A stretch of 64,000 bases of DNA from Corynebacterium lizhenjunii (GTDB lineage: Bacteria; Actinomycetota; Actinomycetes; Mycobacteriales; Mycobacteriaceae), in assembly GCF_011038655.2 (NCBI RefSeq), contig NZ_CP064954.1, forward strand, positions 2,294,001 to 2,358,000, given 5' to 3'. The position numbers and the translations under genes are program-made. The notes beneath the pieces were generated by a model. It did not search any database and was not told the origin of the DNA. It was given only the letters and a program-made list of their open reading frames with translations. Below are positions 2,173 to 61,064 of this stretch, piece after piece. How positions within the stretch are numbered: position 1 is the stretch's first letter; each line of letters starts with the position of its first letter.

Positions 2173-3513
2173 TTACTTTGCTCCTGCCTGGATAGCGGTA
2201 ATTGCCACAGTATTGACGATGTCCGGGACGGTAGCGCCCCGCGACAAATCATTAATCGGCTTATTCAGCCCCTGCAAAATCGGCCCCACGGCTAGGGCGC
2301 CGGCGGTGCGCTGCGCGGTCTTGTAGGCAATGTTGCCGGCTTCCAGGTCGGGGAAGACGAACACGGTTGCCTGGCCGGCCACCGCAGATTCGGGGGCCTT
2401 CTTAGCGGCTACACCAGGGTCGCAGGCGGCATCGAACTGCAAGGGCCCATCCACCTTTAGATCGGGGTCCAGCGAGCGCGCGGCAGCCACCGCGGCCACC
2501 GCCCGGTCCACATCTGGCCCGGCCCCGGAGCTGCCCGTGGAGTAAGACAAAATAGCCACCCGTGGGTCTATACCAAATTGCGCGGCCGTGCGCGCGGAGA
2601 CCACGGCAATCTCCCCCAGTTGTTCTGCGGTGGGGTTGGGGTTGACGGCGCAGTCCCCAAACGCCCACAGGCGCCCGCGCATGACCATCAGGAAAATCGA
2701 GGACACCACCGAAGCCCCAGGCACCGTCTTAATAATCTGGAACGAAGGCTTGATGGTGTGCGCGGTGGTGTGCGCGGCGCCGGAGACCATGCCATCGGCT
2801 AGACCTTTGTGCACCATCATGGTGGCGAAGTAGGAAATATCCTCCATGGTCTCGCGCGCCTGCTCCAACGTGACCCCCTTGGACTTGCGCAGTTCCGCGA
2901 AGTCGGCCGCAAATTCTTCCAATAAGGGGGAGCTGCGGTGATCGATAATAGTGGCATCGGCAAGCTCAATGCCCAGCTCGGCAGCACGCCCGCGAGTGCG
3001 CTCGGGGTCTCCCAGGATAGTCAGCTTAGCTATGCCCTTGGCCAGCAGCTGCCCGGCGGCCAGCAAGATGCGGTCATCGTCGCCCTCCGGCAGCACAATG
3101 TGCGCGCCCGCGGCCTTGGCCTGCTGCAACAGCTGCGCCTCAAACACGGAGGCCGACATCACCGGTGCGATGGGCCCCTGCGGCGCAATGGCTGCCGATG
3201 CCCCCGCCACATCCGCCACCTTCACCGCCGTGGCCTGCAGTTCCTTGGCGTGGCGCAGCGCCAACTCCGCAGCCTGGCCCTGCCCAATAATCAACAGCGG
3301 CACCCCCAACGCCGCGGCCGCCAGGGCATCAAAGTGCACATCGCCCGTCCCACGCAGCAGACCCTGCAGAGACTCCCGCGACGCCACCACCTCCGGGATT
3401 GTCGACACCGTAATGTCCGTGACCTGCCCGGCACCCAGCTCCTTAGCCAGCGCCGGCAGGTCCAGCCCCTCAAATCCGCGGCCAGCAACGGTGACAAGCG
3501 CAGGATTAGCCAT
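2173..3513 (-). CDS. pta: phosphate acetyltransferase
   Basis: Pta exchanges CoA and phosphate on acetyl-CoA, making acetyl phosphate for AckA. The 446-residue form starts at the ATG at 3513 (MANPALV), chosen because GAAAGG lies at good distance upstream; a second ATG at 3531 has no ribosome site. After a poorly conserved N-terminal half-domain comes the catalytic domain from about residue 125: HIVLPEGDDDRIL, ELRKSKGVT, DGMVSGAAHTTAHTIKPSFQ, LWAFGDCAVNPNP, SYSTG and GATVPDIVNTVAITAIQAG near the end. This matches corynebacterial Pta closely. Two copies of the dispersed motif lie within the gene (2953 and 3193). Confidence 0.96.
   Translation of the reverse strand: MANPALVTVAGRGFEGLDLPALAKELGAGQVTDITVSTIPEVVASRESLQGLLRGTGDVHFDALAAAALGVPLLIIGQGQAAELALRHAKELQATAVKVADVAGASAAIAPQGPIAPVMSASVFEAQLLQQAKAAGAHIVLPEGDDDRILLAAGQLLAKGIAKLTILGDPERTRGRAAELGIELADATIIDHRSSPLLEEFAADFAELRKSKGVTLEQARETMEDISYFATMMVHKGLADGMVSGAAHTTAHTIKPSFQIIKTVPGASVVSSIFLMVMRGRLWAFGDCAVNPNPTAEQLGEIAVVSARTAAQFGIDPRVAILSYSTGSSGAGPDVDRAVAAVAAARSLDPDLKVDGPLQFDAACDPGVAAKKAPESAVAGQATVFVFPDLEAGNIAYKTAQRTAGALAVGPILQGLNKPINDLSRGATVPDIVNTVAITAIQAGAK
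3193..3205 (-). repeat. dispersed motif GGGGGCATCGGCA, copy in pta
   Basis: Exact 13-base match, reading GGGGGCATCGGCA on the minus strand, inside pta. Confidence 0.8.
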
Positions 3514-3712
3514 ATTCGCAGCCCTTTCCATCCTCTTCTGCTCGCACCCGCCCGCCAGTGACGCGCAGCACGCAGCATTTACATAGTGACCCAGCTATTC
3601 TACCGGCCCCCGCGCGCCTTTACCTACCGAATGCCGCGCCCCATAACGAGATATATCCCACGCCGGGGCGGCCGCGGTCAGGGTCGTACCGCCTGCCAGC
3701 CCGGCGCTCGCA

Positions 3713-3741
3713 TTGCTCCGGTGGTACCACATGCAGTACCA
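3713..3741 (+). promoter_or_regulatory. putative leaderless promoter of hicAB
   Basis: TTGCTC (3713-3718) and TACCAT (3736-3741) are 17 bases apart. The GTG of hicA begins 8 bases after the -10, where transcription would start, so a leaderless mRNA is likely. This also argues for GTG 3749 as the hicA start. Confidence 0.45.
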
Positions 3742-3748
3742 TACGGGT

Positions 3749-3901
3749 GTGGGAAAGAGTATTGGCACCATCGTCCGGGACCTGAGGCGTTCGCCGAAGA
3801 ATGTGCGGTTTGCCGATTTGGCAAAAGTCTGCGATCACTACTTTGAGCGTCGACCTTCCCAAAAGACCTCGCATCGCACCTACAAGAAGGAAACGGAGTA
3901 G
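3749..3901 (+). CDS. hicA: HicA-type toxin, C-terminally shortened
   Basis: The 50-residue product matches the first half of HicA mRNA-interferase toxins: SIGTIVRDLRRSPKNVRFADL is the conserved start, and SHRTYK contains the catalytic His region. Most HicA proteins continue with a hydrophobic strand and a GKAKPYQVRQV helix. Here the protein stops right after SHRTYKKETE and the antitoxin gene begins 5 bases later, so the second half of the double-stranded-RNA-binding-like fold is missing. The toxin is probably inactive or unusual. GTG was chosen from the promoter spacing; a TTG at 3713 and an ATG at 3731 are alternatives. Confidence 0.6.
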   Translation: MGKSIGTIVRDLRRSPKNVRFADLAKVCDHYFERRPSQKTSHRTYKKETE

Positions 3902-3906
3902 CCAAC

Positions 3907-4233
3907 ATGGATATTAACAAGTTCACCTATCAAGTCTCCTGGTCTGAAGAAGACCAAGAGTTCGTCGCAACCGTGGCCGAGTTCCCCTCCCTATCGTGGC
4001 TGGCCGCGGACAGGCAGCAAGCTGAACAAGGCCTACTTGACCTCGTAGCCGAGGTCGTGGAGGACATGGAGGCCTCCGGCGAAGACGTGCCCACCCCGTT
4101 GGGAAGCCGTAGCTATTCGGGGAAGTTCAACGTGCGCACGTCCCCGTCATTGCACCGAAAGTTGGCTATCCGTGCCGCGAGAGAGGGCATTTCCCTCAAT
4201 GCGTTGGTTAACCAACAACTCGCCGCCATCTAG
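3907..4233 (+). CDS. hicB: HicB-type antitoxin
   Basis: The 108-residue product has the HicB layout. A partially degraded RNase-H-like N-terminal domain (FTYQVSWSEEDQEFVATVAEFPSLS, with the DLVAEVVEDME helix) is followed by a C-terminal ribbon-helix-helix segment (SGKFNVRTSPSLHRKLAIRAAREGISLNALV) that would bind the operon promoter. It neutralises HicA and represses transcription in characterised systems. A GGAG at the end of hicA serves as the ribosome site. It is intact while its toxin is shortened, a common state for decaying modules in which the antitoxin persists as a regulator. Confidence 0.85.
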   Translation: MDINKFTYQVSWSEEDQEFVATVAEFPSLSWLAADRQQAEQGLLDLVAEVVEDMEASGEDVPTPLGSRSYSGKFNVRTSPSLHRKLAIRAAREGISLNALVNQQLAAI

Positions 4234-4263
4234 TCGATGAAGAACTGCCCCGCACCCGCCACG

Positions 4264-4269
4264 TAATAT
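4264..4269 (+). promoter_or_regulatory. -10 element TAATAT, leaderless start of the GNAT gene
   Basis: TAATAT ends 6 bases before the ATG at 4276 and no ribosome site lies between, so transcription probably begins at the start codon. No good -35 is seen. Confidence 0.4.
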
Positions 4270-4275
4270 GGCCCC

Positions 4276-4737
4276 ATGGAAACCACCATCACCACCGCCC
4301 CGATAGCCCACCTGAGCAGCATGGATGTCCATGACATTTACAAGCTGCGCGTGGAGGTCTTCGTCCACGAGCAACAGATCGCCTACGCTGAGATTGATTC
4401 CACCGACGCCCACCCGGACACCCGCCATCTGCTCGCCCGCGCCGCCGATGGCACCCTGCTGGGCACCTGCCGTATCTTCCCCACCACCGTCAACGGCGAG
4501 CCCGCCATGCAGTTCGGCCGCTTTGCCCTCCACCCTTGCGCCCGCGGCACCGGCGTTGCCCAACAGCTGATGTCCCACTCCCTGGACCTGTGCCAGCAAC
4601 AGCTTGCCGATGCCCCCGTCTACCTCAACGCCCAAGCCCCTCTGGCCACCTACTACGCTCAATACGGTTTCCAAATCTGCGGCCCCGAGTTCGACGAGGA
4701 AGGCCTCCCCCACATTCCCATGCTCCGGCGGGTGTAG
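4276..4737 (+). CDS. ElaA-type GNAT N-acetyltransferase
   Basis: The 153-residue product is a GNAT acyltransferase of the ElaA branch. YKLRVEVFVHEQQIAYAEIDSTD matches the ElaA signature (LRxxVFVVEQ..Y.EID), GTCRIFP is strand 4, and FGRFALHPCARGTGVAQQLM is the acetyl-CoA pyrophosphate loop (R/Q-x-x-G-x-G/A type). The substrate is unknown for the family. The gene stands alone between hicB and the broken reading frame. The motif copy at 4605 encodes LADAPVYLNAQ near the acceptor end of the fold. Confidence 0.85.
   Translation: METTITTAPIAHLSSMDVHDIYKLRVEVFVHEQQIAYAEIDSTDAHPDTRHLLARAADGTLLGTCRIFPTTVNGEPAMQFGRFALHPCARGTGVAQQLMSHSLDLCQQQLADAPVYLNAQAPLATYYAQYGFQICGPEFDEEGLPHIPMLRRV
4605..4617 (-). 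repeat. dispersed motif, copy in the GNAT gene
   Basis: TGCCGATGCCCCC on the plus strand, preceded by AGCT, so the longer form AGCTTGCCGATGCCCCC is intact. It reads LADAP in frame. Confidence 0.85.
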
Positions 4738-4756
4738 AGGGCTGCGGTTGCTGTCG

Positions 4757-5140: not shown

Positions 5141-5237
5141 CTATGCAGACTGTCGACAGATTGATATAGTGGGACTTATACCCTAGTCCGGTTCAGCGAT
5201 AGAAAGAAAGGCGTGCTTAACAAAGCAACATTTGACC

Positions 5238-7189: not shown

Positions 7190-8449
7190 CTACCCCTCAC
7201 CCCCGGTAAGTCGCACTTTCCCCGCCGCCAAGGCTGCCTTGTCCTGCGCCTCTGCGACAGTCTCGGCGGTAGTCACGACTAAGCCCCTGACACCCGCGCC
7301 AGACTCCCCAAATACCCTAAAGTCAGTTTCTGCATAGGCCAAGGCCTCAGCCAACCCCGACAAGGCCATCCCGTCCGAGGCTGTCCCTGACGTCGCAGCC
7401 GCCGACGAAGCACCTCCAAACAAGGCGCTCCCAGAGGACGCAACCGCACCCAAAGCGCCACCGTCCAAAACACCCCCATCCAAATCCGCTACAACAACCG
7501 CAGCCCCGGGCGAGGTCAGCGTAACGTCAATGGGATACCTCAGCGCGGCACGCGCGTGCAGTTGGTATTGACTCAATCGCTGCGTGTAGCTGGTCAGTAT
7601 TCCGGTATCCAGCGGCCGCGGGGTCACGGCGGAGAAATACACGTCATCGCCGGCCACAAATAGTTCCACACCGTATAGCCCCCGGCCACCTAGCTCGTTA
7701 GATATGCGCGCGGCTACGGACCGCGCGTTCTCCAGGGCGCGTTGGCTCATCTCTAGCGGCTGCCAGGCCTCTGCTAGTTTGCCGCCGGCGTGTTGGTGTC
7801 CTATGGGTTCACTAAACCAGGTGGCCAGTGCTCCGGTTGCGGGGTCGATGGAGCGCACTGCCAGCAGCGTCATCTCATAGTCAAAGTCCACGTACCGTTC
7901 CGCAACCACGGTCAGCTTGTCTTCGTTGGGGTGCTGTAGGCTGTGCCATGCTTTGCCGATGCCCCCTTCGTCCCGCACCAAATACTGCTCACCGTCTGCT
8001 GTGCCGCTGTTGCGTTTGACCATGCAGGGGTACCCCAGTTCCGCAACGGCGGCCTCCAATTCTTGCTCGCTGGAGGCGAATTGGTGCGCAGCGACTGGCA
8101 GGCCAAGGGATTCTGCGGCTCGGTACATTGCTTTGCGGTCGCGGGTGCATGCGCAGGCGTGGGCGCTGGGGATGACGGTAATGCCGCGTTCTTCGAGTCC
8201 GCGGAGAGCGGAGACGGAGACTCTGTCACTCATGGGGAGCACAATGTCCGGCTGGACTTCAATGCAGTGGTCCAGGACAGCGTGTTCATCGCACCCCGTA
8301 GCGGTGTACACGTCTACCCCGAGTCGGCGAAAAGCGATAACGAGCTCGTCGCCTAGTTCGTTGGGGCCCAGCAAGAGTACGCGCGGGGTGCGCGAGTGGC
8401 TTCCGCCGGCGGGATTGGTGTGCGGCGCGGCGGTGTGCTCAGTGGTCAT
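7190..8449 (-). CDS. PurT-like ATP-grasp formyltransferase homologue, altered active site
   Basis: The 419-residue product aligns with formate-dependent GAR transformylase PurT (purine synthesis): RVLLLGPNELGDELVIAFRRLG, then the ATP-grasp core with VDFDYEMTLLAVRSIDPATG, ARSVAARISNELGGRGLYGVELFVAGDDVYFS, PRPLDTG and SGLAEALAYAETDFRVF. Family-defining parts differ: the phosphate loop expected as KPVMSSSGKGQ is KRNSGTADGEQ, the GAR-contact PEIEAI is PMSDRV, PRPHDTG is PRPLDTG, and the C-terminal RR pair is lost. An Ala-Gly-Ser-rich insertion fills about residues 327-365. The ATG at 8449 has GGAGAG upstream. It could be a diverged paralogue with a new substrate or a decaying purT. Confidence 0.75.
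   Translation of the reverse strand: MTTEHTAAPHTNPAGGSHSRTPRVLLLGPNELGDELVIAFRRLGVDVYTATGCDEHAVLDHCIEVQPDIVLPMSDRVSVSALRGLEERGITVIPSAHACACTRDRKAMYRAAESLGLPVAAHQFASSEQELEAAVAELGYPCMVKRNSGTADGEQYLVRDEGGIGKAWHSLQHPNEDKLTVVAERYVDFDYEMTLLAVRSIDPATGALATWFSEPIGHQHAGGKLAEAWQPLEMSQRALENARSVAARISNELGGRGLYGVELFVAGDDVYFSAVTPRPLDTGILTSYTQRLSQYQLHARAALRYPIDVTLTSPGAAVVVADLDGGVLDGGALGAVASSGSALFGGASSAAATSGTASDGMALSGLAEALAYAETDFRVFGESGAGVRGLVVTTAETVAEAQDKAALAAGKVRLTGGEG
7954..7966 (-). repeat. dispersed motif, copy in the purT-like gene
   Basis: Exact 13-base copy read as EGGIGK, at the position where PurT proteins carry an ordinary helix (AEQLAQAW-like). Confidence 0.8.
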
Positions 8450-14293: not shown

Positions 14294-14745
14294 ACTGAAG
14301 AAGTCCTTTCATTTCGTGAATACGGAATAGCTCGAGCCCACTGACGCGCCAACAATGCTGGAAAACAGAAGCCCGTACGCTGTGGCCGAAGCTTACACCC
14401 ACGAGTAAGAAAACTCAGAAAGCTTGGACTTAGAACTCAGGTAAACATCAGGAAAATATGGCCAGAAATTTGGCGAGATTGCAATTGCACCTTAAGCAAA
14501 CCGTTTAGTGCAAATGGTTTGCAGCAAGGTTAATCGGTATTACGGTGCACTTATTCAGCCAACCGACACCACCAAAATTATTAGCCCATGCAACTGTCAC
14601 GTGCTCGATAATGCAAAATTGTGATGCTCGACTCACTCGCCCATCTAGGGGTACCCACCCGGGGGAAGCCGAGGAAAGAAGCAAGGGTGAGGCGAGGGGG
14701 CATCGGCAAACTTTGCAAAGAGCAAACTTGGCAGAAAACACCAAA
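14294..14745. other. intergenic region between the two surface protein genes
   Basis: No gene is seen. The first part (14294-14480) holds the leader and presumably the promoter of surface protein A on the minus strand, with GAAAGGAC just upstream of its ATG. It is A+T-rich compared with the flanks. The remainder holds a dispersed-motif copy (14696) fused to AAACTTTGCAAA (14708-14719), close to the RamB consensus of C. glutamicum. Confidence 0.5.
14696..14708 (+). repeat. dispersed motif, intergenic copy
   Basis: Exact GGGGGCATCGGCA, continuing AACTTTGC, in the gap between the two surface protein genes. Confidence 0.85.
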
Positions 14746-20703: not shown

Positions 20704-20716
20704 GGGGGCATCGGCA
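20704..20716 (+). repeat. dispersed motif at the gltS stop codon
   Basis: The full form GGGGGCATCGGCAAGCT runs to 20720, and its CTAA end supplies the TAG stop of gltS (20719-20721). Confidence 0.85.
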
Positions 20717-24592: not shown

Positions 24593-24802
24593 CCCGCCCC
24601 GCACACAGCGCAGGCGCCCAGGAAGCGCAACAGCCCCACGGCAACCAGAAATGGACCGCCGGAGGGGCTACAAGCGCGGCGGCTATGAGGCGGTAGCAGG
24701 GCCCGCAGGTGGGGCGGGGAGACGGTGAGGCGGTCTGGCCGGAGGCGGTGAGGCGGGGAGACGGAGAGTCGGTCTGGAGGGAGGCGGAGGGGCATCGGCA
24801 GA
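24593..24802. repeat. G-rich imperfect repeats between convergent genes
   Basis: Blocks such as GAGGCGGTCTGG and GGCGGGGAGACGG repeat two or three times, ending in a GGGGCATCGGCA copy (24789-24800). The CTAG next to that copy gives the stop of the following minus-strand gene. No gene is seen. Confidence 0.5.
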
Positions 24803-36513: not shown

Positions 36514-36526
36514 TGCCGATGCCCCC
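36514..36526 (-). repeat. dispersed motif beside a HAIR box
   Basis: Exact TGCCGATGCCCCC on the plus strand. A second, 12-base copy stands at 36561-36572. Confidence 0.85.
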
Positions 36527-36677
36527 TACCGGATTGCCTAGCCTGCCTACACACCCAGCCTGCCGATGCCCCTCCCCCATCCTGCTGGCATGAATACCTC
36601 AGCCCCGCACGCACTGGTTCACGACTCGGCAAGACTCAAATCTGCCACCCCCTTCGGGGCCGGCTGGCTATAAGGCC

Positions 36678-39915: not shown

Positions 39916-40221
39916 ATGAATTCGATTAGCTTTAGCCATCTCGCCCCCGCGCTGCTGCGCCAGGCCCGCAACCGCCGCGTGCCAGACCCTGCCGCTTCTC
40001 CCCCGTTGCTTGCCGATGCCCCTCGCACCCACCGCACCCTGCACACCATCCTGTCCACGTGGTCTGCTCAGCTTGCCGATGCCGACTCCCAACTCCACGC
40101 TCACCATCACCGCCTGGAGGCCCTGGTGCATACCATCGTCGCTGAAGACGCCGCGCTTGCGCGGGCGTTGGATGCGAACTTAGACGGTTCATCGACGCCG
40201 GTGGCTGGGATTCGGCCATGA
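39916..40221 (+). CDS. small helical partner of the DUF1023 protein, 101 aa
   Basis: The product is His- and Ala-rich and helical (ISFSHLAPALLRQARNRR, LHTILSTWSAQL, HHHRLEALVHTIVAEDAALARALD), possibly a WXG100-like helical hairpin. Its stop overlaps the start of the next gene by 4 bases (ATGA), so the two are translated together. Two dispersed-motif copies fall in it (40012 read LADAPRTH; 40075 read LADADSQ). No family is certain. Confidence 0.6.
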   Translation: MNSISFSHLAPALLRQARNRRVPDPAASPPLLADAPRTHRTLHTILSTWSAQLADADSQLHAHHHRLEALVHTIVAEDAALARALDANLDGSSTPVAGIRP

Positions 40222-41423
40222 TCCGGGCTGGGGTGGACCCGGGGCCCGGTACCGGCGTGGGCGCGGCTGCTTCCCTGCGTGGTGCGGCGGCACAACTGCG
40301 CTTAGCCGCCGGGGACCTGGAGGAGTTTATCGGCGACAGCCATCGGCTGTGGGTCAGGCTTTTCGCCGACTTGGAAGGACCAGCTGCCACAGCTGGGCGA
40401 GCAGCGCTAGAAGACACAGCGGGAAGGATGGGAAGCACCGCGGGAAGCATTGCTGCGGCGGCGGAAGTCCTGGAACGCTACGCGGTCCTTTATGCGCAAC
40501 TGCACCGGGCCGCGGCGCTGGGCCAGGTCTCTGCAATTGCGGAAACCCTGGCCACCGTAGGCGCAGCAGTGGATTGGATGTGCGCGCGCGAGCTGGTACT
40601 GCTGTGCACGCCAATTCCACCGCCGCCGCCACAACGGCTGGAGGACTTCGATGACTTGCCGCTGGCGAGCATCGACGCCATTCAACGCGCTACCGCCCCT
40701 CCAGACATTCGCTTGTTTCTCGAAGCCAACCCAGACCTCATCGTCCTGGAAGCCAGCCCGGGGAGGTTGGTGGCGGTGGTGGATGGGGGCATCGGCAAGC
40801 TAGGGCACAGTGGGACGGCACCGGCAACGGTGACGACTTTTGTGCCCGGGGTGGGATCGAGTGAGGCGTCGAATTGGAACGGGCAGATTGAGCGCGCGCG
40901 GAAGCTGGCGCAGGCCACGGGCGGGCCAGCGGTGGCCTGGATGGGATACACCGCGCCGAGCAGCGTGCCGCGCGCCATTCAGACCGCGCCGGCAGAGGCC
41001 GGCGGGGCTGAGCTCGCGCGGTTTCAAGCCGCGATGCGCAGGCGGTGGCCGAACACTCGGCAAATTGTGGTCGGGTATTCCTATGGTTCCGTGGTGGCCG
41101 GGCACGCGGCAAGCCGGGGTATGCGGGCCGATGATGTGGTGCTGGTGGGATCACCCGGCGCCGGGGTGACCAATGCGCGAGCGTTTGGCGGGCGGGTGTG
41201 GACGGCGACCAACCGCGGGGACCCCATCGCGCTGGTGCCCGGCGCGCGCGGTGGGCCGCATGGGCCGGACCCGCGAAGTCGCAGCTTCGGCGCGCGTTCC
41301 GCACCGGGAGCGGGCAGGCGACCGGGCGACCACGGCTCTTATTGGCAGGACGCGGCGTTTGTGGACGCGGTGGGTTCCATAGCTCGAGGCCGCTGCGTGC
41401 CCGGGGACCGCGGGCCGGTGTAG
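40218..41423 (+). CDS. DUF1023-type alpha/beta hydrolase with helical N-terminal domain
   Basis: The 401-residue product has an Ala-rich helical N-terminal domain (residues 10-125, WXG/ESX-like) and an alpha/beta-hydrolase domain like the actinobacterial DUF1023 proteins: FLEANPDLIVLEASPGRLVAVV, VTTFVPGVGSSEASNW, WMGYTAPSSVP and VVGYSYGSVVAGHAAS, whose Ser is the likely nucleophile. DDVVLVGSPGAGV, TNRGDPIALVPG and the later DHGSYW could supply Asp and His. The substrate is unknown. A motif copy at 40785 encodes DGGIGKLGHSG, an insertion in the loop before the VTTFVPG strand. Confidence 0.8.
   Translation: MIRAGVDPGPGTGVGAAASLRGAAAQLRLAAGDLEEFIGDSHRLWVRLFADLEGPAATAGRAALEDTAGRMGSTAGSIAAAAEVLERYAVLYAQLHRAAALGQVSAIAETLATVGAAVDWMCARELVLLCTPIPPPPPQRLEDFDDLPLASIDAIQRATAPPDIRLFLEANPDLIVLEASPGRLVAVVDGGIGKLGHSGTAPATVTTFVPGVGSSEASNWNGQIERARKLAQATGGPAVAWMGYTAPSSVPRAIQTAPAEAGGAELARFQAAMRRRWPNTRQIVVGYSYGSVVAGHAASRGMRADDVVLVGSPGAGVTNARAFGGRVWTATNRGDPIALVPGARGGPHGPDPRSRSFGARSAPGAGRRPGDHGSYWQDAAFVDAVGSIARGRCVPGDRGPV
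40785..40797 (+). repeat. dispersed motif, copy in the DUF1023 gene
   Basis: The longest clean copy, GGGGGCATCGGCAAGCTAGG, read in frame as GGIGKLG. Confidence 0.85.
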
Positions 41424-43542: not shown

Positions 43543-44730
43543 CTACTGGTTTCGCGCCCCGGCCCAGCCGGCGCGGGGGCTAAAGCCGGATTCCTTCTCC
43601 GCTTGCGCATAGGTGCGCAGGGCACTCATCGCACCGGCGTCCAGGCGCTCGGGTACGGTGACCTGCACTGTTACCAGCAGGTCGCCCGTGGTGCCGCCGC
43701 GCTTGCCGATGCCCCTTCCACGCACCCTTAGCGTCCGCCCGTCAGGGGTTCCAGGTTGGATTTTCAGCCGTACTGGCTGGTCCAGGGTGGGCACAGTGAT
43801 GGTGTCGCCGAGGGCAAGTTCGGCAAAGGATACAGGGACGGTCAGCAACAAGTCATTGCCGTCGCGCTCAAAGAGCGGATCGGGTTTAACGGTGACGGAG
43901 ACGAAGAGGTCGCCAGCGGGGGTGCCGTTGGGCCCGGCTTCGCCTTGGCCGGCAAGGCGAACCTTTTGGCCGTCTTCGACACCGGCGGGGATGCGCACGG
44001 TAATCGAGCGGGTGCGGTGCACGGTGCCGGTGGCGGAGCACTCTGGACAGGGGTCGGTAATTTTGTGCCCGGTGCCGTCGCAGTCGCTGCACGGTGCAGA
44101 AAAGCCGAAAGCGCCGCGGTTTTTACTGGTAAAACCGGAGCCGTTACAAGTTCCACATGTGCTGGGTGTGCCGGAGGTGGAGCCTGAGCCGTGGCAAGCG
44201 GTGCATGGGGCGTTGCCGCTTAGTTGGAGCGGGAGCGTGGTTCCTTTCGCCGCTTCGCGGAATTCCAGGGTGACGTCCGTTTCGACGTCTGCCCCCCGCG
44301 ACGGCCGAGCTGCGTGGCCACTACCAGCGCCGCGGTTGAAAACGCCACCGAAGATATCCCCAAGACCACTGCCTTGAGCCGCTCCTCCAGCGGCGCCGAG
44401 AATGTCGGAGAGGTCGAAGTCCCGCGCGCCGCGCCCCGACGCCCGAAACCCGCCGGGAAAGCCGGCGCCTCCTGCCCCAAAGCCGCCGCGCGCAATCATG
44501 GCTTTGAATTCGTCGTATTCTTTGCGGTCTTGCGGATCCCCGAGGACTTCGTAGGCTTCCGCCACGCGCTTAAAGCGGTCCAGTTTGGCTGGATCATCCG
44601 GGTGGGTATCTGGGTGGTTATCGCGCGCTAGCTTGCGGTAGGCGCGTTTAATCTCATCTGCGGACGCTTTTTGGGAGACCCCCAGGTCCGCGTAATAGTC
44701 CTTTTCAGCCCATTCAGGTTTTGCACTCAC
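43543..44730 (-). CDS. dnaJ: DnaJ co-chaperone
   Basis: The 395-residue protein has a J domain ([37 protein letters not shown], with the HPD signature), a Gly-Phe-rich linker with [14 protein letters not shown], four zinc-finger motifs ([32 protein letters not shown]) and the C-terminal substrate domain. It stimulates DnaK ATPase and delivers clients. GTG start, with GGGGGAGAT upstream. A terminator-like hairpin and its own A+T-rich leader separate it from grpE, so dnaJ-hspR may also be transcribed alone. A motif copy encodes RGIGKRGG (43703). Confidence 0.97.
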
Positions 44731-44902: not shown

Positions 44903-45718
44903 CTACTGCTCGCTCGGGGTTTCGACGCTGGCAGCAGGTGCATCAGCGATAATGACCATCGCGGTGCGGATGAGCTTGTCACCCACGCGGTAGCCACGGC
45001 GCAAGATGGTGCCCAGCACCTGTTCGCCGCCGGAGGAGAGATCCTGGACGGCCTCGTGAATCTCCGGGTCGAAGGCGTCGCCCTCATCGCCGAAAGACTC
45101 CACATTCTGGCCACGCAAGATGGCGCTCAACTTATCCGCAATGGCCTTGAGTGGGCCCTCATCAAGGTCGCCGTGCTGGCGGGCTAGTTCCAAGTCATCG
45201 AGGATGGGCAGGAACTCGCCCAGTACCTTAGCCTTTGCAGTTTCCACCACTGCCTGGCGCTCGCGTTCAGTACGGCGGCGGTAGTTGGTGTATTCCGCAT
45301 TGAGGCGTTGGAGGTCCTCGGTGCGCTCGGCAAGCTGTGCCTGCAGCGCGGCGATAGCGTCGGCCTCGGCGGCGTCAGCTTCGCCTGTCTCAGCCGCGTC
45401 ACTAGCAGCGTCAGCCCCAGCGACGGTGGCGTCGCTAGCGGCGTCGGCAGCGGCGTCAGCCGCTGCGCCGGTAGCAGAGTCAGGGAACTCGGCGTCGGCC
45501 AGGGCGGCCTCGAGGTCGGCCTCCAAGGTGGGGTCAAGCTCGGGCTCAGAAGGAGCTCCAGTGCCGGGCTCGGCGCCAGGAACCTCGGCGCCGGGAGCCT
45601 CGGCACCGGAAGCGGCATCGGCAGCTTCGGCAGCAGAAGCAGCGGCTTCGGCCTGCTCCGGGGAGGTAGCCTCCGGGTCTGTGTTATCCGGGTGGCCCGG
45701 ATCCTGCGGGGTAGTCAT
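44903..45718 (-). CDS. grpE: GrpE nucleotide exchange factor with long Ala/Asp-rich head
   Basis: GrpE releases ADP from DnaK. The C-terminal 150 residues are standard: [31 protein letters not shown] is the long helix, [15 protein letters not shown] the core, and [11 protein letters not shown] the end of the beta domain. The first 110 residues are low complexity (Ala, Asp, Glu, Gly, Pro), much longer than in relatives, and contain LADAE and AADAASGA, both dispersed-motif reads. It follows dnaK by 5 bases. Confidence 0.96.
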
Positions 45719-45723
45719 GGAGA

Positions 45724-47586
<1,863 letters not shown>

Positions 47587-47792: not shown

Positions 47793-47805
47793 TGCCGATG
47801 CCCCC
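47793..47805 (-). repeat. dispersed motif, intergenic copy above dnaK
   Basis: Exact TGCCGATGCCCCC, 8 bases beyond the third HAIR box. Confidence 0.85.
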
Positions 47806-47869: not shown

Positions 47870-47951
47870 AAACCTGCGGGAGGGGGAAGGGGTGGGCTGG
47901 AGGCGAAAACCTGCGGGAGGGGGAAGGGGTGGGCTGGAGGGGGCATCGGCA
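47870..47951. repeat. 38-bp duplication ending in a dispersed-motif copy
   Basis: GAAAACCTGCGGGAGGGGG and GGGTGGGCTGGAGG recur as a block at about 47868 and 47905. The second block runs straight into an exact GGGGGCATCGGCA at 47939-47951. Next to it GGAGCGGCCGACGGCAAACT is also doubled (47978-48012). Confidence 0.75.
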
Positions 47952-51500: not shown

Positions 51501-52009
51501 GGCTGTGGCGCGCCGCTGAGCTAGACCAGCTGGCCTGGCAGGAAGAGTTCGGCCGCGAGCATGACCGCACCGGCCTGGTCTCCGAGGCCAACATCTTCCG
51601 CTACCGCCCGCTGCTGGACAAGCTGCGCATCCGCATCGGCGAAGGCTACGCCCTGCGCGACATCGCCCGCCAGGAACTGGCCGCCGCCATTACCGGCACC
51701 GCAGTGGAGTTCTCCGCCCCGGCTGGCATCGCTGAAGAGCTGAGCAAGCACGGCTTTAACGTCCGCACCCTGGACGCGGAGGCTTTTGCCCGCGAGCTCT
51801 CCCGCGCGGCTTCCTCGCGCGTGCGCGCCCTGGGTGCCGTTGAAGACGAAGCCCGCCTGGCTGCCGTGGAGTCCAACTCCGTCATCCTGGACCAGCCCGT
51901 GCTTGCCGATGGCCGCCGCGAACTGCTGCCCTACCTGCTAGAGCAGGCAGTGTCCATCACCATGCACCGCTTCGGCATCATTCGCTCCGTCGCCGGCATC
52001 GAGCGCTAA
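48533..52009 (+). CDS. putA: bifunctional proline dehydrogenase / P5C dehydrogenase
   Basis: PutA oxidises proline to glutamate in two steps. The 1158-residue product has the FAD-dependent proline dehydrogenase barrel (TLDLIKNPRVTYVSVKASSM, then IKIRIVKGANLSMEH, ATHNLFTAATAYELA and YTPVVHKEDFDVAVSYLVRRL) and the NAD aldehyde dehydrogenase domain: TPPWNFPIAIPVGGM, IIKPAPQ, ILTGASDTGALFRSW, AETSGKNAM (catalytic Glu) and SGQKCSASS (catalytic Cys). No N-terminal ribbon-helix-helix domain is present, so it does not repress its own gene. A C-terminal region of about 170 residues follows, as in other long PutA forms. Chosen ATG has only a weak ribosome site (GAGG). Confidence 0.96.
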   Translation: MTEPAYTRLPESDDMDAIVEAAVERAHKWLAASDGEQDKGTEQLADLLRDEDGVKFTMDFVDRVMRPEDNTVAANALRVVTQEFDPSFLGLINGTLVGLGGFVGPILPNLVMPLARLRMRQMVGHLVLDAESDSLNKLLDKAAESGEHLNLNLLGEAVLGEDEARSRAQRTLDLIKNPRVTYVSVKASSMVAQLNHWDIDGSVERLKERLRPLYEEAVSRSPHVFINLDMEEYHDLHLTIRLFKELLSEPAFKNLEAGIVLQAYLPDTFEALQELAEFGVQRVAEGGAPIKIRIVKGANLSMEHVQGEIHGWPVATYTDKQEVDANYYRLLDFIVREEYADAVRIGVATHNLFTAATAYELANKRGVVRMLDSEMLQGMSPAQQAAVRQVYEGRQILYTPVVHKEDFDVAVSYLVRRLEENSATQNFLYALFAPEEKDALNDNLTPIEQQERVYRRAVERRWETFAGPNRTQDRAAESEAGEGRQAPKTGRFSNEPDTDPALAANRAWGLAALAKDPGHHGIDEVTDPAEVETAVAKAKSLAADWAAKSGDERAQVLETVADKLADNRDRLINVAAYEANKTIDQTDPEISEAIDFATYYAASARLLDEARSVFTPHEVTVVTPPWNFPIAIPVGGMLSALAAGSTVIIKPAPQVVHCAKLAVECIHLALEEHGLDRDLVQLVLTDEGEAGKALISHPDVDAVILTGASDTGALFRSWRPEMNLMAETSGKNAMIITPAADPDLAIADLYHSAFAHSGQKCSASSLVIFVGAAGTSDRLRNQLLDAVKTLKVGPGYDITTTMNGLAEAPGEKLLRGLTTLEPGEKWLLKPEKLNEEGTLWSPGIRDGVKPGSWYHLNECFGPVLGIMHAETLEQAVAWQNSTGYGLTGGIHSLDDAEIEYWIDNVEVGNAYVNRGITGAIVQRQSFGGWKKSVMGPGAKAGGPNYVAQMGTWSEGELKPRNVDIQAATAKKLRGLSERLRDAISEEDIAWLWRAAELDQLAWQEEFGREHDRTGLVSEANIFRYRPLLDKLRIRIGEGYALRDIARQELAAAITGTAVEFSAPAGIAEELSKHGFNVRTLDAEAFARELSRAASSRVRALGAVEDEARLAAVESNSVILDQPVLADGRRELLPYLLEQAVSITMHRFGIIRSVAGIER

Positions 52010-53541: not shown

Positions 53542-55119
53542 GTGATTTCGAATACGCCTAAAACCGCGAACGCGAACCGCAAAGAAGCGGTAGCGCAAGA
53601 GTCGCGTACCAACTCCGCGGACTTCCAACGCAAGTCCCGCGCCAGCCTCAACCAGCCGATTGTCGCGCAGGATAAGGAAGGCATTGGCTCCGGTGTCGCC
53701 GGCTCCGTCAACCGCGACCACAAGTCCGCCATCCTCGCCCAAGACTCGCGCACCATGGCCACAGTCGCGGCACGCTTCATCCTCATCGTCGTTGCCCTCG
53801 GCATCGCCGGCTACCTGCTGCGCTTCATCTGGACCGGCCTGCTGCCCGTCCTCCTTGCCCTGCTAATGACCACCGCCCTCTACCCCGTCACCGCCTGGAT
53901 CCGCACCCGCCTGCGCTTCCCCGCCGCACTGGCCGCGGTAAGCACCCTGCTGGTGTTCTTCGGCGTCATCGGCGGCATCTTTACCGCCATGGCCCCTACC
54001 GTGCGCCGACAGGGAGCAGAACTGATAAGCCAGGCCGAAGGGGGCATCGCCCAGCTAGGCGGCATGCTGGACCAACTGCCCATCGACATCGAGGGCGACC
54101 AGGTCCAAAACGCCCTGCAGGACCTGACCAATGTGGTTAAGGGCCAGGCCTCCAACATCGCCACCGGCGTGATGACGGGCGTTTCCACCGCGTCGTCCAT
54201 CATCGTGTGCGTGGTCATCATGTTCTTCCTGTCCTTCTTCTTTATCAAGGAAGGCGAACGCTTCCTGCCGTGGCTGCGCAAGTACACCGGCGCGACGGCT
54301 GGCTGGCACATCACCGAGCTGTGCAACCGCATTTGGAAGACCCTGTCCGGCTTCATTCAAGCGCAAGCGGCGGTGGCTATGGTCGACGCCGTGTTTATTG
54401 GTCTAGGCCTGTGGGTGCTGCAGGTGCCGCTGGCGTTTGTGATTGCGGTGATTACTTTCTTTGGCGGCTTCATCCCGATTATCGGTGCGGTGGTTGCCGG
54501 CGCACTGGCCGTGATTATCGCCTTGGTTTCCAAGGGGCTGACTACCGCGCTGCTGGCGTTGCTGGTGGTCATCGCCGTGCAGCAGCTGGAAAGCAACGTG
54601 CTGCAGCCGATATTGCAGTCCAAGGCCATGGGCCTGCACGCCACCGTGGTGCTGCTGTCTGTGACCGTGGGTTCGGCGCTGGCGGGCATTATTGGCGCGT
54701 TCCTGGCTGTGCCGGTGGCGGCGACCATTAGCGTGGTACTGCGCTACGGTGCGCTGACTACGGCCCTGCGCGCCGGCGAAGTGGACCCCTACACCGCGGA
54801 GATTATTACCGGCGCCCCCAAGGCCAGCCGCCGGGACCGCAAGGCTGATAAGGAATCCGACTTTGCCGATGAAGCCGCCCGCACCCTCCGCGAAGGCGCC
54901 ACCGACGTTGCGGAGCTGGACCCCAACTCCCCGCGCGGCAAGATTCGCGAGCTCTACATCGCCATGTCCCCGAAGCACTGGCAGGCCCCTGAGCCTCCTG
55001 CAGAGTCTGCCGATGCCGGGCCTGCCGATGCCGCCGCAGCCGCCGCCGGGCCTGCTGGTGCCGGGTCCGCCGGGCCTGCTGGTGCCGCCGGTGCCGAGGG
55101 ATCCGACGCTGCCCGCTAA
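53542..55119 (+). CDS. AI-2E family permease
   Basis: The 525-residue product is of the AI-2 exporter-like superfamily (UPF0118). A soluble N-terminal part of about 70 residues precedes the helices: ATVAARFILIVVALGIAGYLLRFIWTGLLPVLLALLMTTALYPV, then GVIGGIFTAMAP, SIIVCVVIMFFLSFFFIKEGERFLPWL, VAMVDAVFIGLGLWVL, FFGGFIPIIGAVVAGALAVIIAL and QQLESNVLQPIL. The family includes transporters for AI-2 and ions; the substrate here is unknown. The C-terminal tail (residues 470-525) is Ala-Gly-Pro-rich and carries two motif-like copies (55009, 55023). A variant encodes EGGIAQLGG (54040). Confidence 0.85.
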   Translation: MISNTPKTANANRKEAVAQESRTNSADFQRKSRASLNQPIVAQDKEGIGSGVAGSVNRDHKSAILAQDSRTMATVAARFILIVVALGIAGYLLRFIWTGLLPVLLALLMTTALYPVTAWIRTRLRFPAALAAVSTLLVFFGVIGGIFTAMAPTVRRQGAELISQAEGGIAQLGGMLDQLPIDIEGDQVQNALQDLTNVVKGQASNIATGVMTGVSTASSIIVCVVIMFFLSFFFIKEGERFLPWLRKYTGATAGWHITELCNRIWKTLSGFIQAQAAVAMVDAVFIGLGLWVLQVPLAFVIAVITFFGGFIPIIGAVVAGALAVIIALVSKGLTTALLALLVVIAVQQLESNVLQPILQSKAMGLHATVVLLSVTVGSALAGIIGAFLAVPVAATISVVLRYGALTTALRAGEVDPYTAEIITGAPKASRRDRKADKESDFADEAARTLREGATDVAELDPNSPRGKIRELYIAMSPKHWQAPEPPAESADAGPADAAAAAAGPAGAGSAGPAGAAGAEGSDAAR

Positions 55120-55739
55120 GCGCGGGTGCTCGGGGTGGGGGTGATGAAGCCGGAGCGCACGCAGGCTTCTAGGAGCTCGCGCGCGGCTCGGCTCAAGGCG
55201 CCGTCCCAGGCGCCCACGGAGGACTCATTGGCGGGGTCGGAGACTTGTTTAAGCAGTGTCACCGGCACGTCAAAGCGCTGACATACGGCGGCAATGGCAT
55301 AGCCCTCCATATCGCACAGGCCCCAGTCGCGCGCTAGGCGAGTGCGCGTGGCGGTATCGGAGACAAACATGTCGCCGGTGGCCAGGCTATGCGTGGGGTG
55401 GTCTCCGCTGGTGGGCAACATGATGGTTCGCGGTAGTAGGTAGCGTTCGATGTCGGAGAGCACTTGCAGGTGAAAGTCGTGCTTGGTCACGCGCTCGATT
55501 TCAAAGACACCATCGAGCCCATCGTGTAGGCCCCCAGCCGTGCCCAGGTTAACCACCCGCTGCGGCAGGGTGTTCTGCGCGCGGGCGGTGCTGAGGTATT
55601 CCGTTAGTGTTATAGCCGCCGGCAGCGTGCCGATGCCTGTTATTAGCCGCCTGGCCCCCTCCGGCAGGCCGGCGACCTCGGCGTCTACGGCGGCGACGAA
55701 TAGGATGTCCGGGTCTGCTTGGTAGCTGGGTATGCTCAC
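55116..55739 (-). CDS. MTA/SAH-type nucleosidase
   Basis: The 207-residue product is of the nucleoside phosphorylase/hydrolase fold: ILFVAAVDAEVAGLPEG at the start, LITGIGTLPAAITLTEYL, RVVNLGTAGGLHDGL, LATGDMFVSDTATRT, LCDMEGYAIAAVCQRFDVPVTLLKQVSDPANE, with the Met-Glu and Ser-Asp residues that bind ribose and purine in methylthioadenosine nucleosidases. It may recycle methylthioadenosine or S-adenosylhomocysteine. GTG at 55739 is preceded by AAAGGAG. Its end overlaps the end of the permease by 4 bases. Confidence 0.85.
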   Translation of the reverse strand: MSIPSYQADPDILFVAAVDAEVAGLPEGARRLITGIGTLPAAITLTEYLSTARAQNTLPQRVVNLGTAGGLHDGLDGVFEIERVTKHDFHLQVLSDIERYLLPRTIMLPTSGDHPTHSLATGDMFVSDTATRTRLARDWGLCDMEGYAIAAVCQRFDVPVTLLKQVSDPANESSVGAWDGALSRAARELLEACVRSGFITPTPSTRA

Positions 55740-55977
55740 GTGCGGCTCCTTTGCTGTGGTGTGTATGGGTGCATTATAGGGCTGCCATAGGACATGCCCC
55801 AGCTTGCCGATGCCGCCACCCCTCCCGGTTTCCAAGCCCTGCCGCCTAGCTAAGCCCCGCCGCGCGGTTCAGTTCCTGCCCTGCCAGTTCCTGCCCTGTC
55901 AGTTCCTGCGCTGTCAAAAAGGGTGCGCCACAATAGTAGTGCGGGGCCCACACTGTCAAGGGTGCAGATTCTTTGCC
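55740..55977. repeat. gap with a motif copy and a 15-bp triple repeat
   Basis: No gene is seen. AGCTTGCCGATGCCGCC (55801-55817) is a one-mismatch motif copy. CAGTTCCTGCCCTGC and two near-identical 15-base units follow at 55870-55914. Confidence 0.6.
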
Positions 55978-57386: not shown

Positions 57387-58667
57387 TTAGCGCAGGCGCT
57401 GGCCCACAAAGCCCGCCGCCAGGGTGTTGCCCGTGCCCGGATCGATGAGCAAGAAATTACCCACCGCGCCGCGGGCGGCGTAGTCCTCGACGGGAAGTTC
57501 CAGCTGGGTTTGGATAGTCACGTGGGCGATCTCATTGAGCGTGGCCTTCTCCGGCGCCAGCGTATCCGCCACGCCGTCCAAGTCGAGGATGCGGTCCACG
57601 CTAGTAATACGCGCCTTGACCTGCGCGGAACCATAGCGCAGCGTCAACACCGCGCCCGGGACCAAGTCCTTTTCCGTAAGTACTACCGCAGTGGCGGCGA
57701 ACTCGCGGCTTTCGGCCGGGCGGTCGCTACCGGCAATCAGGTCGCCGCGCGCCAAGTCAATGTCATCTGCCAAGCGCAAGACGATGGAGTCACCGACGGT
57801 AGCGGGGGCATCGGCAAGCTCACCATCAGAGGTATCAATGTGCTCCACGGTGGAGGTGCGCCCGCCGGGCAAGGTGACGGTATCGCCCACCGCCACCCGG
57901 CCGGCCTTCACGCGGCCGGCGTACCCGCGATAGTCAGAGGCGTGCTCGCGGATAACGTACTGCACCGGGAAACGGAAGTCCAGGTCCTCCGCGCGGCCGC
58001 CGCTCACCGGCGTGGTTTCCAGGACCTCCAGTACCGTGGGGCCGGTGTACCACTCCATATTGGTGGAACGCTCCACCACGTTATCGCCCTTGAGCGCGGA
58101 GATGGGCACCACCGTGGTATCAGTGATCTCCAGGCGGGTGGCAATACGCTGGAACTCCGCCTCAATCTCGCGGAAGACCGACTCCTGGTAATTGACCAGG
58201 TCAATCTTGTTTACCGCCAAAATCACGTGGCGCACGCCCAGCAGTGCCGCAACGTTCAAGTGCCGGCGGGTTTGCTCGACAACGCCGTGGCGGGCATCGA
58301 TAAGCAGCACCACCACCTGGGAGGTAGACATGCCTGTCACGGTGTTGCGGGTGTACTGGACGTGGCCGGGAGTATCAGCAAGAATGAACGTGCGCTTGTC
58401 AGTGGCGAAGTAGCGGTACGCAACGTCGATGGTGATTCCCTGCTCGCGCTCCGCGCGCAAGCCATCCACCAGCAGCGACAAGTCCATGCCGTCGAAACCG
58501 CGGTCCGTCGAGGAACGCTCCATCGACTCCACCTGGTCCGCCAGCACCGACTTGGTGTCGTAGAGCAGGCGGCCCACGAAGGTGGACTTGCCGTCATCAA
58601 CAGAGCCCGCCGTGCACAGGCGGAGAGTCTCGCGCTCCTTCAAGGCGCCAATGTGTGCGGTAGTCAT
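57387..58667 (-). CDS. cysN: sulfate adenylyltransferase subunit 1 (GTPase)
   Basis: CysN is the GTPase that drives ATP sulfurylase (CysDN), making APS from sulfate. The 426-residue product has GSVDDGKSTFVGRLLYD (G1), DTPGHVQYTRN (G3) and VNKIDLV (G4), then the elongation-factor-like beta barrels. It lacks a fused CysC (APS kinase) domain. Its ATG overlaps the cysD stop (ATGA). A motif copy at 57804 encodes ELADAPATVGDS between the two barrel strands. Confidence 0.95.
   Translation of the reverse strand: MTTAHIGALKERETLRLCTAGSVDDGKSTFVGRLLYDTKSVLADQVESMERSSTDRGFDGMDLSLLVDGLRAEREQGITIDVAYRYFATDKRTFILADTPGHVQYTRNTVTGMSTSQVVVLLIDARHGVVEQTRRHLNVAALLGVRHVILAVNKIDLVNYQESVFREIEAEFQRIATRLEITDTTVVPISALKGDNVVERSTNMEWYTGPTVLEVLETTPVSGGRAEDLDFRFPVQYVIREHASDYRGYAGRVKAGRVAVGDTVTLPGGRTSTVEHIDTSDGELADAPATVGDSIVLRLADDIDLARGDLIAGSDRPAESREFAATAVVLTEKDLVPGAVLTLRYGSAQVKARITSVDRILDLDGVADTLAPEKATLNEIAHVTIQTQLELPVEDYAARGAVGNFLLIDPGTGNTLAAGFVGQRLR
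57804..57816 (+). repeat. dispersed motif, copy in cysN
   Basis: GGGGGCATCGGCAAGCT in full; read LADAP on the coding strand. Confidence 0.85.
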
Positions 58668-59563: not shown

Positions 59564-59645
59564 GGTGTGTGTGGTGTCCTATTCGGGTGGTTACCTCTAC
59601 AGGTGGCTGCCAGCGTACAAGTGGCTGCCAGCGCGGGCGGGCCGC

Positions 59646-60431
59646 CTATTCGTGTAGTCCGCACTCGGTTTTGCCGTCGGCAAAAACGCGGCCGGCGCGG
59701 GCGTCTTCTCCATCGCCCACTGGGAAAGTCAGTGGGGCGCAGCCGATAGAGCGGTAGCCCTGCAGGGTCAGGGGGTGAATAATCAGATCATGTTCCGCAA
59801 TGTAGCGGTCTGTCTGGTCTAAGTCCCAGGTGATCAGCGGAGAAATCTTCAGCCGACCAGTGCGGTCCAGGCTTAGCGCCGGTGCGGTGGCGCGGTGGGC
59901 GGAGTCCGCCCTGCGCAGGCCGGTGACCCAACCGACGTAAGGGTCCATAGCCATATTCAGCGGTTCGACCTTGCGCATGCGGTTATACGCGGCGGTGTCA
60001 GTGGCATAAAGCCGCGGGCCATAGACCTGGTCTTGTTCTTCGGGGCTAAGCAGCGGCAGGACGCGCACCAGGGACAGGTCTGGGTAGCGAGCGGCGACGG
60101 CATCGGCAGTCTCGAGCGTTTCTGGAAAGTGGAAGCCCGTGTCAATAAACAGCAGGTCAGCGTCTAGTCCCGCGCGGTGGGACAGCTCCGCCAGCACGGT
60201 GTTTTCCATGGACATGGTCACGGCCAGACGGCCGGGCGCGTGCTCGGCGGCCCAGGCGATGATGTCCTCGGCGCTGGCGTCATAAAGGCGCTGCGCCCAG
60301 TCCTCGACCAGCTGGGCGTTGCGCGCAGCGGTCTCCGCCGGCAGCGGCGCGGTGTCCCGGGTGCCCTCCGGGCTTATGGCCGGGTCGCGGTAGTGCTTGC
60401 CAGCGCCAAGCAGATTCAGTGGTTCCGTCAT
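59646..60431 (-). CDS. cysH: CysH-type (P)APS reductase without iron-sulfur ligands
   Basis: CysH reduces APS or PAPS to sulfite. The 261-residue product has VTMSMENTVLAELSHRAGLDADLLFIDTGFHFPETLETAD, the MRKVEPLNMAMDPYVGWVTGLRRADSAHRA block and the catalytic C-terminal ECGLHE. APS reductases of actinobacteria usually carry CC before LRKVEPL and CxxC in GCAPC; here these read YNRMRKVEPL and GCAPLT, so the [4Fe-4S] ligands are absent. No APS kinase is visible nearby to make PAPS. It heads the cysHDN unit, divergent from the Fpr-like gene across a McbR site. Confidence 0.9.
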   Translation of the reverse strand: MTEPLNLLGAGKHYRDPAISPEGTRDTAPLPAETAARNAQLVEDWAQRLYDASAEDIIAWAAEHAPGRLAVTMSMENTVLAELSHRAGLDADLLFIDTGFHFPETLETADAVAARYPDLSLVRVLPLLSPEEQDQVYGPRLYATDTAAYNRMRKVEPLNMAMDPYVGWVTGLRRADSAHRATAPALSLDRTGRLKISPLITWDLDQTDRYIAEHDLIIHPLTLQGYRSIGCAPLTFPVGDGEDARAGRVFADGKTECGLHE

Positions 60432-60563
60432 ACCTTAACACTCTAGGGTCACCGGCCCGGGAGTCCCGCAGCGCTGGCAGACGCGCGCGGGCTTTAGGGG
60501 GCGCACGCTCGAAATCTAGCGTGAATATAAATTGCCACGAACGGAATGAGCGGTCTATATTTT

Positions 60564-60579
60564 TAGACAAGCTAGTCTA
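60564..60579. promoter_or_regulatory. McbR-type operator
   Basis: TAGAC-N6-GTCTA, exactly the binding pattern of the methionine/cysteine repressor McbR of C. glutamicum, in the divergent cysH / Fpr-like promoter gap. It implies repression when sulfur amino acids are ample. Confidence 0.8.
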
Positions 60580-60605
60580 CAAATTCCGGACGAAGGAGGT
60601 CCTCC

Positions 60606-61064
60606 ATGCGTAATCCGCAGCGCATAGCCATCATCGGCGAAGGTCCCGCGGCGTTGTCTGCCGCTGAGAATCTACTCCGCGCCGGCATGTGCGTAGACCT
60701 CATCTCCGCCCGGACTGCACCGTTCGGTCTACTTCGCCGTTTTGCGGGGCTGTCTGGGGTGCTCGCGGAGGCCGTGGCGGGGGCAGCGGACGGTCCTGCC
60801 CACTGCGCCGCAGGCATGGTCCCCCGCCTGCGCCTGATTGGCAACGTCCGCGTGGGCTCCGGCCCGGACGCAGACATCACCCACCGCGAGCTGCACCAGC
60901 TGGCCAGCCGCGGCGACCGCGAGCTCATCATCCTCGAGCTCAAGGCCCGCGGCGTTGCTGTGACCACCTGGGAGGGCCTGTGCGCCCCCGCACAGCTTGC
61001 CGATGCCCCCGAAGACTGGGCAACCGTCATCTCCCGCGCCCAGCTGGCACCGGTGTGCTTCTAA
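60606..61064 (+). CDS. truncated ferredoxin-NADP reductase-like flavoprotein (Fpr-like), 152 aa
   Basis: The product matches only parts of FprA/Fpr2-type reductases: RIAIIGEGPAALSAAENLLRAGMCVDLISARTAPFGLLR is the FAD dinucleotide fold with the APFG loop, and RLRLIGNVRVG plus DITHRELHQL resemble the middle. The bulk of the FAD and NADP domains, about two thirds of the usual 450 residues, is missing. AAGGAGG precedes the ATG, and the frame is intact, so it may be expressed as a small protein. In C. glutamicum a full fpr2 heads the sulfate-reduction cluster with cysI; here neither cysI nor a full fpr2 is seen. A motif copy encodes LADAP (60998). Confidence 0.65.
   Translation: MRNPQRIAIIGEGPAALSAAENLLRAGMCVDLISARTAPFGLLRRFAGLSGVLAEAVAGAADGPAHCAAGMVPRLRLIGNVRVGSGPDADITHRELHQLASRGDRELIILELKARGVAVTTWEGLCAPAQLADAPEDWATVISRAQLAPVCF
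60998..61010 (-). repeat. dispersed motif, copy in the Fpr-like gene
   Basis: AGCTTGCCGATGCCCCC in full, read QLADAPED near the C terminus. Confidence 0.85.

Follow-up and report, generated by a model that had tools for sequence, protein, structure and literature searches.

The question raised by a stretch of 64,000 nucleotides of the Corynebacterium lizhenjunii chromosome (hereafter the window; bases 2,294,001-2,358,000 of the single contig of 2,607,882 bases that makes up the genome designated G000) is why one short, non-palindromic word, the 13-mer GGGGGCATCGGCA, should recur there on both strands, within as well as between genes. This 13-mer proves to be one local spelling of a motif that spans the genus, C[A/G]TCG-NN-AAGC, which is not visible from the window alone. 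The repeat is probably a DNA uptake sequence, the self tag of a Corynebacterium competence system; we infer uptake itself, a receptor and the drive that would spread the tag from comparison of genome sequences.

Abundance and form of the motif

The window holds 15 exact copies of the 13-mer (9 on the plus strand and 6 on the minus strand), all at the positions given in a preliminary description of this DNA, whereas 100 shuffles yielded 0. The 8-mer core CATCGGCA, earlier counted as about forty copies, is present 41 times (20 plus, 21 minus) compared with 3.67 +/- 1.97 in the shuffles. Throughout the 2.61 Mb of G000 there are 326 copies of the 13-mer, 166 forward and 160 reverse, with 0 of the reversed control word, and the 10-mer GGCATCGGCA has 990 copies versus 10 for its control. 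Thus, a chance origin is ruled out by the shuffle counts and the genome-wide control, and the count close to background that the preliminary description had named as a possible refutation was not found.

On the plus strand, the 13-mer is located at 14696..14708, 20704..20716, 30746..30758, 40785..40797 and 47939..47951, outside called genes (a home-made gene caller was used, which makes G000 about 78% coding, and some such sites may fall in uncalled or start-trimmed genes), and at 32603..32615, 33803..33815 (in tandem with the copy at 33836..33848) and 57804..57816. On the minus strand, it is located at 36514..36526 and 47793..47805, outside called genes, and at 3193..3205, 4605..4617, 7954..7966 and 60998..61010. 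Other exact matches to the 8-mer core are at 2955..2962, 24793..24800 (outside called genes), 25099..25106, 26077..26084, 28786..28793, 28936..28943, 33050..33057, 45616..45623, 45828..45835 and 45957..45964 (both in dnaK) and 60101..60108 on the plus strand, and at 29128..29135, 32116..32123, 36308..36315, 38072..38079, 43704..43711 (in dnaJ), 47364..47371 (in dnaK), 51904..51911, 54864..54871, 55008..55015, 55023..55030 and 55628..55635 on the minus strand, as well as at 36561..36568, 40011..40018, 40074..40081 and 55805..55812 of the minus strand, outside called genes. The site at 25099..25106 corresponds to CATCGGAAAGC in the relative G197 and to ATCGGAAAGC in G202, that at 28936..28943 corresponds to CGTCGGCAAG in G051, and that at 29128..29135 is common to G006 and G164, the latter of which aligns with the window over only 8 kb.

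The 13-mer itself is one species' form: among 150 relatives, G006 has 54 copies and each other genome 0 to 6. Variants of one bipartite word, CATCG-NN-AAGC, emerged from de novo word counts in relatives, and the wider motif, C[A/G]TCG-NN-AAGC, consists of 5 and 4 bases separated by 2. The spacing is strict, with 127 CATCG..AAGC sites in G000 at spacer 2 versus 1-14 at spacers 0, 1 and 3-6, and 78 sites in G202 versus 1-5 at other spacers; the spacer bases are GC in 91 of the 127 sites of G000 and variable in G202. In the G000 sample, G-rich DNA lies before the 8-mer core and AGCT-like DNA after it (245 sites). These flanks are clearer for copies outside called genes (57 sites), where about 14 mostly-G positions, the core and AGCTNGG follow one another and the copies have about 35 bases in common. 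The long consensus of the preliminary description was correct, and can be extended by the G-rich upstream flank and the downstream AGCTNGG.

A de novo search for spaced word pairs ranked forms of the motif first in G202, G012 and G036. With a floor of 7 copies in 60-80 kb, no spaced words of this kind were found in G014, G010, G207, G083 or G065, and a possible third form of the motif in G207 was not upheld; despite this, G083 has 10 CATCG..AAGC sites at spacer 2 versus 0-3 at other spacers. The same search returned other repeats or GC-rich words in G033, G039 and G187.

Scans of the window gave no Rfam match at the gathering score and, with ARAGORN, no tRNA. Another word, CTGTGGATAACT, has 5 copies at several places in the window.

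Two dialects across the genus

Genomes were assigned to a dialect if they held at least 200 copies of CGTCGNNAAGC (CGTCG, the G dialect) or CATCGNNAAGC (CATCG, the A dialect), a cut-off chosen in this analysis, and the class counts, like those for genomes outside Corynebacterium, were taken from tables by eye, twice in the case of Corynebacterium. By this measure, 104 of 151 Corynebacterium genomes use the G dialect, with up to 1891 copies compared with roughly 20-110 for the reversed control, 10 use the A dialect, and 113 have either. The A-dialect genomes are G202 (1337 copies of CATCGNNAAGC), G210 (1184), G170 (1080), G203 (1063), G006 (1021), G164 (974), G153 (736), G000 (680), G197 (625) and G072 (213). 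Both dialects reach the cut-off only in G202 (352 copies of CGTCG); there are 28 CGTCG copies in G000, 26 in G203 and 35 in G153. Two-dialect copy numbers are 1669 in C. lactis, 1271 in Corynebacterium sp. J010B-136, 1253 in C. propinquum, 1243 in Corynebacterium sp. HS2168-gen11, 1162 in C. silvaticum, 1150 in C. tapiri, 1004 in C. pseudodiphtheriticum, 942 in C. pelargi, 694 in C. phoceense, 380 in C. ulceribovis, 323 in C. pseudokroppenstedtii, 320 in C. parakroppenstedtii, 161 in C. otitidis (control 69), 107 in C. jeikeium (control 119) and 75 in C. phocae (control 41). The preliminary description had looked for hundreds to thousands of copies, and that is the range observed. In 246 genomes of Mycobacteriales other than Corynebacterium, the motif was at or near the control, at most about 2.1-fold. 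Such a motif in Corynebacterium was not reported among the matches listed from the open-licence literature.

Homologous sites were compared in syntenic alignments of 8 A-dialect with 3 G-dialect species, the counts being of species pairs and not independent. At 470 A-dialect sites, the G-dialect species have CGTCG..AAGC at 93, CATCG..AAGC at 27, neither at 315 and a gap at 35; at 349 G-dialect sites, the A-dialect species have CATCG at 93, CGTCG at 3, neither at 223 and a gap at 30. Comparisons between A-dialect species (1321) gave 390 CATCG, 9 CGTCG, 814 neither and 108 gapped. In the same alignments, CATCG outside the motif remains CATCG in 1375 cases and is CGTCG in 406 (motif versus non-motif, Fisher P 6e-34), and the look-alike CATCG..GAGC has 21 CATCG and 4 CGTCG. 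Since CATCG mostly stays unswitched outside the motif and in the look-alike, the change of spelling is a property of the motif. Conservation of motif sites is not exceptional: 120 of 470 are kept in either spelling compared with 25 of 57 for the look-alike (without gapped sites). As to the motif-free sites in relatives that the preliminary description had named as support, most homologous sites there either have no copy of the word or have it in the second dialect.

The nearest relative of G000 by Pta is G197 (81%). In a phylogeny based on HolA, TadA and ComEC (two of the three being competence genes; G197 is omitted from HolA and ComEC owing to a masked or broken stretch, and several deeper nodes are weakly supported), the A-dialect genomes G006 and G164 are sister to the G-dialect G004 with support of 100, apart from the A-dialect G000/G197, G202, G203 and G153/G170/G210. 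The A dialect is split on this tree, so there has apparently been more than one change of dialect.

Coding copies in G000 have a main reading frame, which is antisense (143 of 210 for CATCGGCA, 65 of 95 for CATCG..AAGC), read as xADA or LxDA, and in which the full motif is CTT-NNC-GAY, Leu-x-Asp; the other 67 of the 210 CATCGGCA copies use other frames. CTT-NNC-GAT is present 94 times in G000 versus 9.0 expected from codon use (10.5-fold), with CTT-NNC-GAC at 0.8-fold and both CTT-NNG-GAT and CTC-NNC-GAT near 1-fold. G012 is reversed, with CTT-NNC-GAC at 7.5-fold and GAT at 0.7-fold, and G036 has CTT-NNC-GAC at 4.3-fold and GAT at 1.9-fold. With GAT raised in G000 and GAC in G012, a switch between the dialects is thus a synonymous change in this frame.

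Several other features of the relatives were noted. Some motif-poor species (G080, G071, G065) have fewer copies of CGTCGNNAAGC than of the reversed control (8 versus 61 in G080), hinting at avoidance. G036 has a second repeated word, AAATGGTGAG (9 copies in the 60 kb of stretches L160-L162, 0 more in a further 100 kb elsewhere), which resembles a word of G012, CCGGGTGAGGA (9 copies); another word of G012, AGCCGGGTGA, has 11 copies in 60 kb (L163-L165) and 0 more in a further 100 kb. Words are repeated within 20 kb of G004 (L170; ACTGAGCCGAC 44 times, CGACCAACCCG 23 times), perhaps in a long repetitive gene. In G065 (L219-L221), the inverted-repeat word TAGAC-6-GTCTA has a count of 8 in 60 kb with the two strands added together, equivalent to about 4 sites, and in G083 TGTGGATAACT, which resembles a DnaA-box-type word, is also over-represented (7 in 80 kb).

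Placement, competence genes and rival explanations

Within the window, the motif is concentrated in shared DNA. Genes were classed as core if tblastn matched them in the syntenic stretches of at least 7 of the 10 relatives compared; their 32.8 kb contain 28 sites, whereas non-core genes hold 1 in 17.3 kb versus 14.8 expected (P 6e-6). There are 0 sites in the two large open reading frames at 8654-14293 and 14787-18893, in those at 5238-7022, 23339-24592 (which has an HNH match) and 41523-42734, or, by the list of window positions, within 52150-53334. Likewise, three 20-kb stretches of secondary contigs from G-dialect genomes (contigs of 29, 44.5 and 23.7 kb, called plasmid-like from their size) contain 0 sites versus 23.8 expected from the density on the chromosomes, although the reversed control is also 0 and the G+C content of two of the three stretches, 0.53-0.54, may lower the background of the motif. 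The absence from variable genes and the depletion in islands proposed in the preliminary description are thereby borne out for the non-core genes of the window and for these contigs. Spacing of the sites is near random and slightly clustered (coefficient of variation 1.05), and even spacing was rejected on this basis; inverted-pair terminators were rejected also, close pairs being mostly tandem (16 of 24 pairs under 100 bp).

G000 encodes the competence proteins ComEA (HHH_3, SLBB) and ComEC (Competence), with a com-operon neighbour that is presumably HolA, named from the usual gene order. Its tad genes encode TadA (T2SSE), two T2SSF proteins, a small pilin-like protein (DUF4244; Flp below the cut-off) and a protein labelled TadE by place and alignment only, with no Pfam match; a TadE/G-like protein (PF13400) adjoins a helicase with an MrfA-type domain. 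In G197, the com operon region (L227) has short ComEA, ComEC and HolA frames and contains masked bases.

In its copy number, presence on both strands, core-rich placement and dialects, and in the competence genes of its host, the motif follows the pattern of the DNA uptake sequence (DUS) of Neisseria, and an uptake tag is for these reasons the most likely reading, as the preliminary description had proposed; it fits better than Chi-like or polar, regulatory, codon-bias or mobile-element readings. A putative surface receptor would prefer double-stranded DNA with C[A/G]TCG-NN-AAGC, a Tad-type pilus would retract, ComEA and ComEC would then import the DNA, and homologous recombination would place it in the chromosome. 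Because tagged fragments would be taken up more often, tags would build up on both strands of the core DNA that is shared, and few would be expected in DNA that is plasmid-like or recently acquired. A shift of receptor preference at one base (G or A at the second position) would lead to rewriting of the old tags over time, and so to dialects. On balance, we favour the broader proposition that uptake is sequence-specific and Tad-pilus-based throughout the genus, the first such case in an actinobacterium, and that the receptor may have flipped repeatedly between two one-base dialects, rewriting hundreds of tags and setting exchange barriers between neighbouring species.

Several observations weigh against an uptake tag. 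Neither dialect reaches 200 copies in 38 of the 151 genomes, of which 7 show weak or borderline enrichment (101-134 copies of CGTCG in six of them; in G083, 159 of CATCG versus 10 for the control). ComEC (30 of 30), TadA (30 of 30) and the TadE-like DECH pilin (150 of 151 genomes) are present in motif-poor species too (in the tad comparisons, G084 contributed no tad locus and the tad contig of G072 ends early; stretch L268, all N, was uncounted); the com and tad genes that the preliminary description had suggested seeking are thus present in G000 but do not distinguish it. Being all but universal, the three were rejected as markers of the motif, and more than the presence of these genes must set it. 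Across eight com/tad proteins, the dialects were fully separated by no column of the alignments, G197 being omitted for ComEA, ComEC and HolA (masked or broken) and G043 and G037 for ComEA (poor frames); near-separating columns were found one each in TadC, ComEA and also the control HolA, whose column was surpassed by none from com/tad. The one-mismatch word CTT-NNT-GAT is raised in G000 as well (19 versus 4.8, 4.0-fold), gaps are slightly more frequent at motif sites (35 of 470, 7.4%) than at random 11-mers (2001 of 39982, 5.0%), and none of the best literature matches listed describes a Corynebacterium that is naturally transformable.

The two alternatives of the preliminary description, a nucleoid-protein site and a mobile micro-element, both fit less well than an uptake sequence. 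The main rival, although unlikely, is that the motif is bound by a chromosomal protein particular to the genus, such as a nucleoid, repair or segregation factor with about a thousand non-polar sites and changes of specificity that would create the dialects. The strict 5-2-4 layout in two parts, together with a specificity switch at one base, is typical of a DNA-binding protein, the strands are balanced, and the motif is not predicted by competence genes; yet it is rare in plasmid-like contigs and non-core genes, each dialect switch would presumably need selection at every rewritten site, and sites show no preference for DNA beyond the called genes in G000 (outside 0.51 versus inside 0.54 per kb), G202 (0.39 versus 0.72) or G012 (0.13 versus 0.40). 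These densities and that of G036 (0.46 versus 0.41), similar or lower outside called genes, also speak against a regulatory site.

Insertion of copies by a non-autonomous mobile micro-element is very unlikely. It would account for the bases common to copies outside called genes and for the raised gap rate; of the 41 window sites, 25 align with G197, 13 ungapped and 12 gapped, which leaves room for insertion at some of them, and several outside called genes are not alignable. The gap excess is small, however, gap lengths at window sites vary between relatives, the word is non-palindromic without fixed ends, and it is through base substitution that the dialect differs between homologous copies.

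A replication-oriented signal, of the type of Chi, the FtsK-orienting polar sequences (KOPS) or the architecture-imparting sequences (AIMS), would also be of high copy number, non-palindromic and core-enriched, but is highly improbable, being already contradicted as a polar signal in G000: in a 504-kb sample, the right arm has 48 plus and 59 minus sites and the left arm 81 plus and 79 minus, and, genome-wide, the first 1.538 Mb holds 100 of the 166 forward 13-mers versus 97.9 expected if even, in keeping with the strand balance stated in the preliminary description. A conserved protein motif combined with codon bias, the refutation that the preliminary description had itself put forward, has next to no chance of being correct despite the single antisense frame of most coding copies, given the synonymous contrast set out above, with three sister codon words near 1-fold, the coding copies in other frames, and the 57 of 267 copies in the G000 sample located outside called genes, where the density is the same as inside.

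Known uptake systems and significance

The DUS of Neisseriaceae is read by the minor pilin ComP, and its close pairs in Neisseria are inverted and terminator-like, unlike the mostly tandem pairs of Corynebacterium. The uptake signal sequences of Pasteurellaceae have a short core and skewed flanks and are mostly in coding DNA, on both strands; the Corynebacterium motif is like them in these respects and unlike them in its unrelated core, and its flank in G000 is G-rich on one side. As far as the available portions of the reports go, the DUS of Neisseria is enriched in the core genome and absent from recently acquired genes (PMC2397512), and that of Neisseriaceae likewise has many copies, with dialects that differ by a few bases among related species (PMC3630211). 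The Corynebacterium word differs from it in being unrelated and bipartite with a free 2-bp centre, in its host, an actinobacterium with a Tad pilus, and in being known here from sequence alone. The competence genes of Micrococcus luteus include TadA ATPases and comEA/comEC, the same gene types as in G000, and no sequence preference is mentioned in the available portion of that report (PMC6667448).

Uptake tags have so far been described from two unrelated bacterial groups only. Two families are reported, in the portion available of PMC7811141, to have a strong preference in uptake. The motif of Corynebacterium, if it is an uptake tag, would be a third case, in a distant phylum, and would imply independent evolution of the trait. 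Corynebacteria, common inhabitants of the skin and nose, would then also be exchanging core genes through transformation. Repeated switches of dialect would make the genus suitable for finding the receptor and for deciding between drive and selection as the way in which tags spread, and the motif may supply a practical transformation tag for species that are hard to transform.

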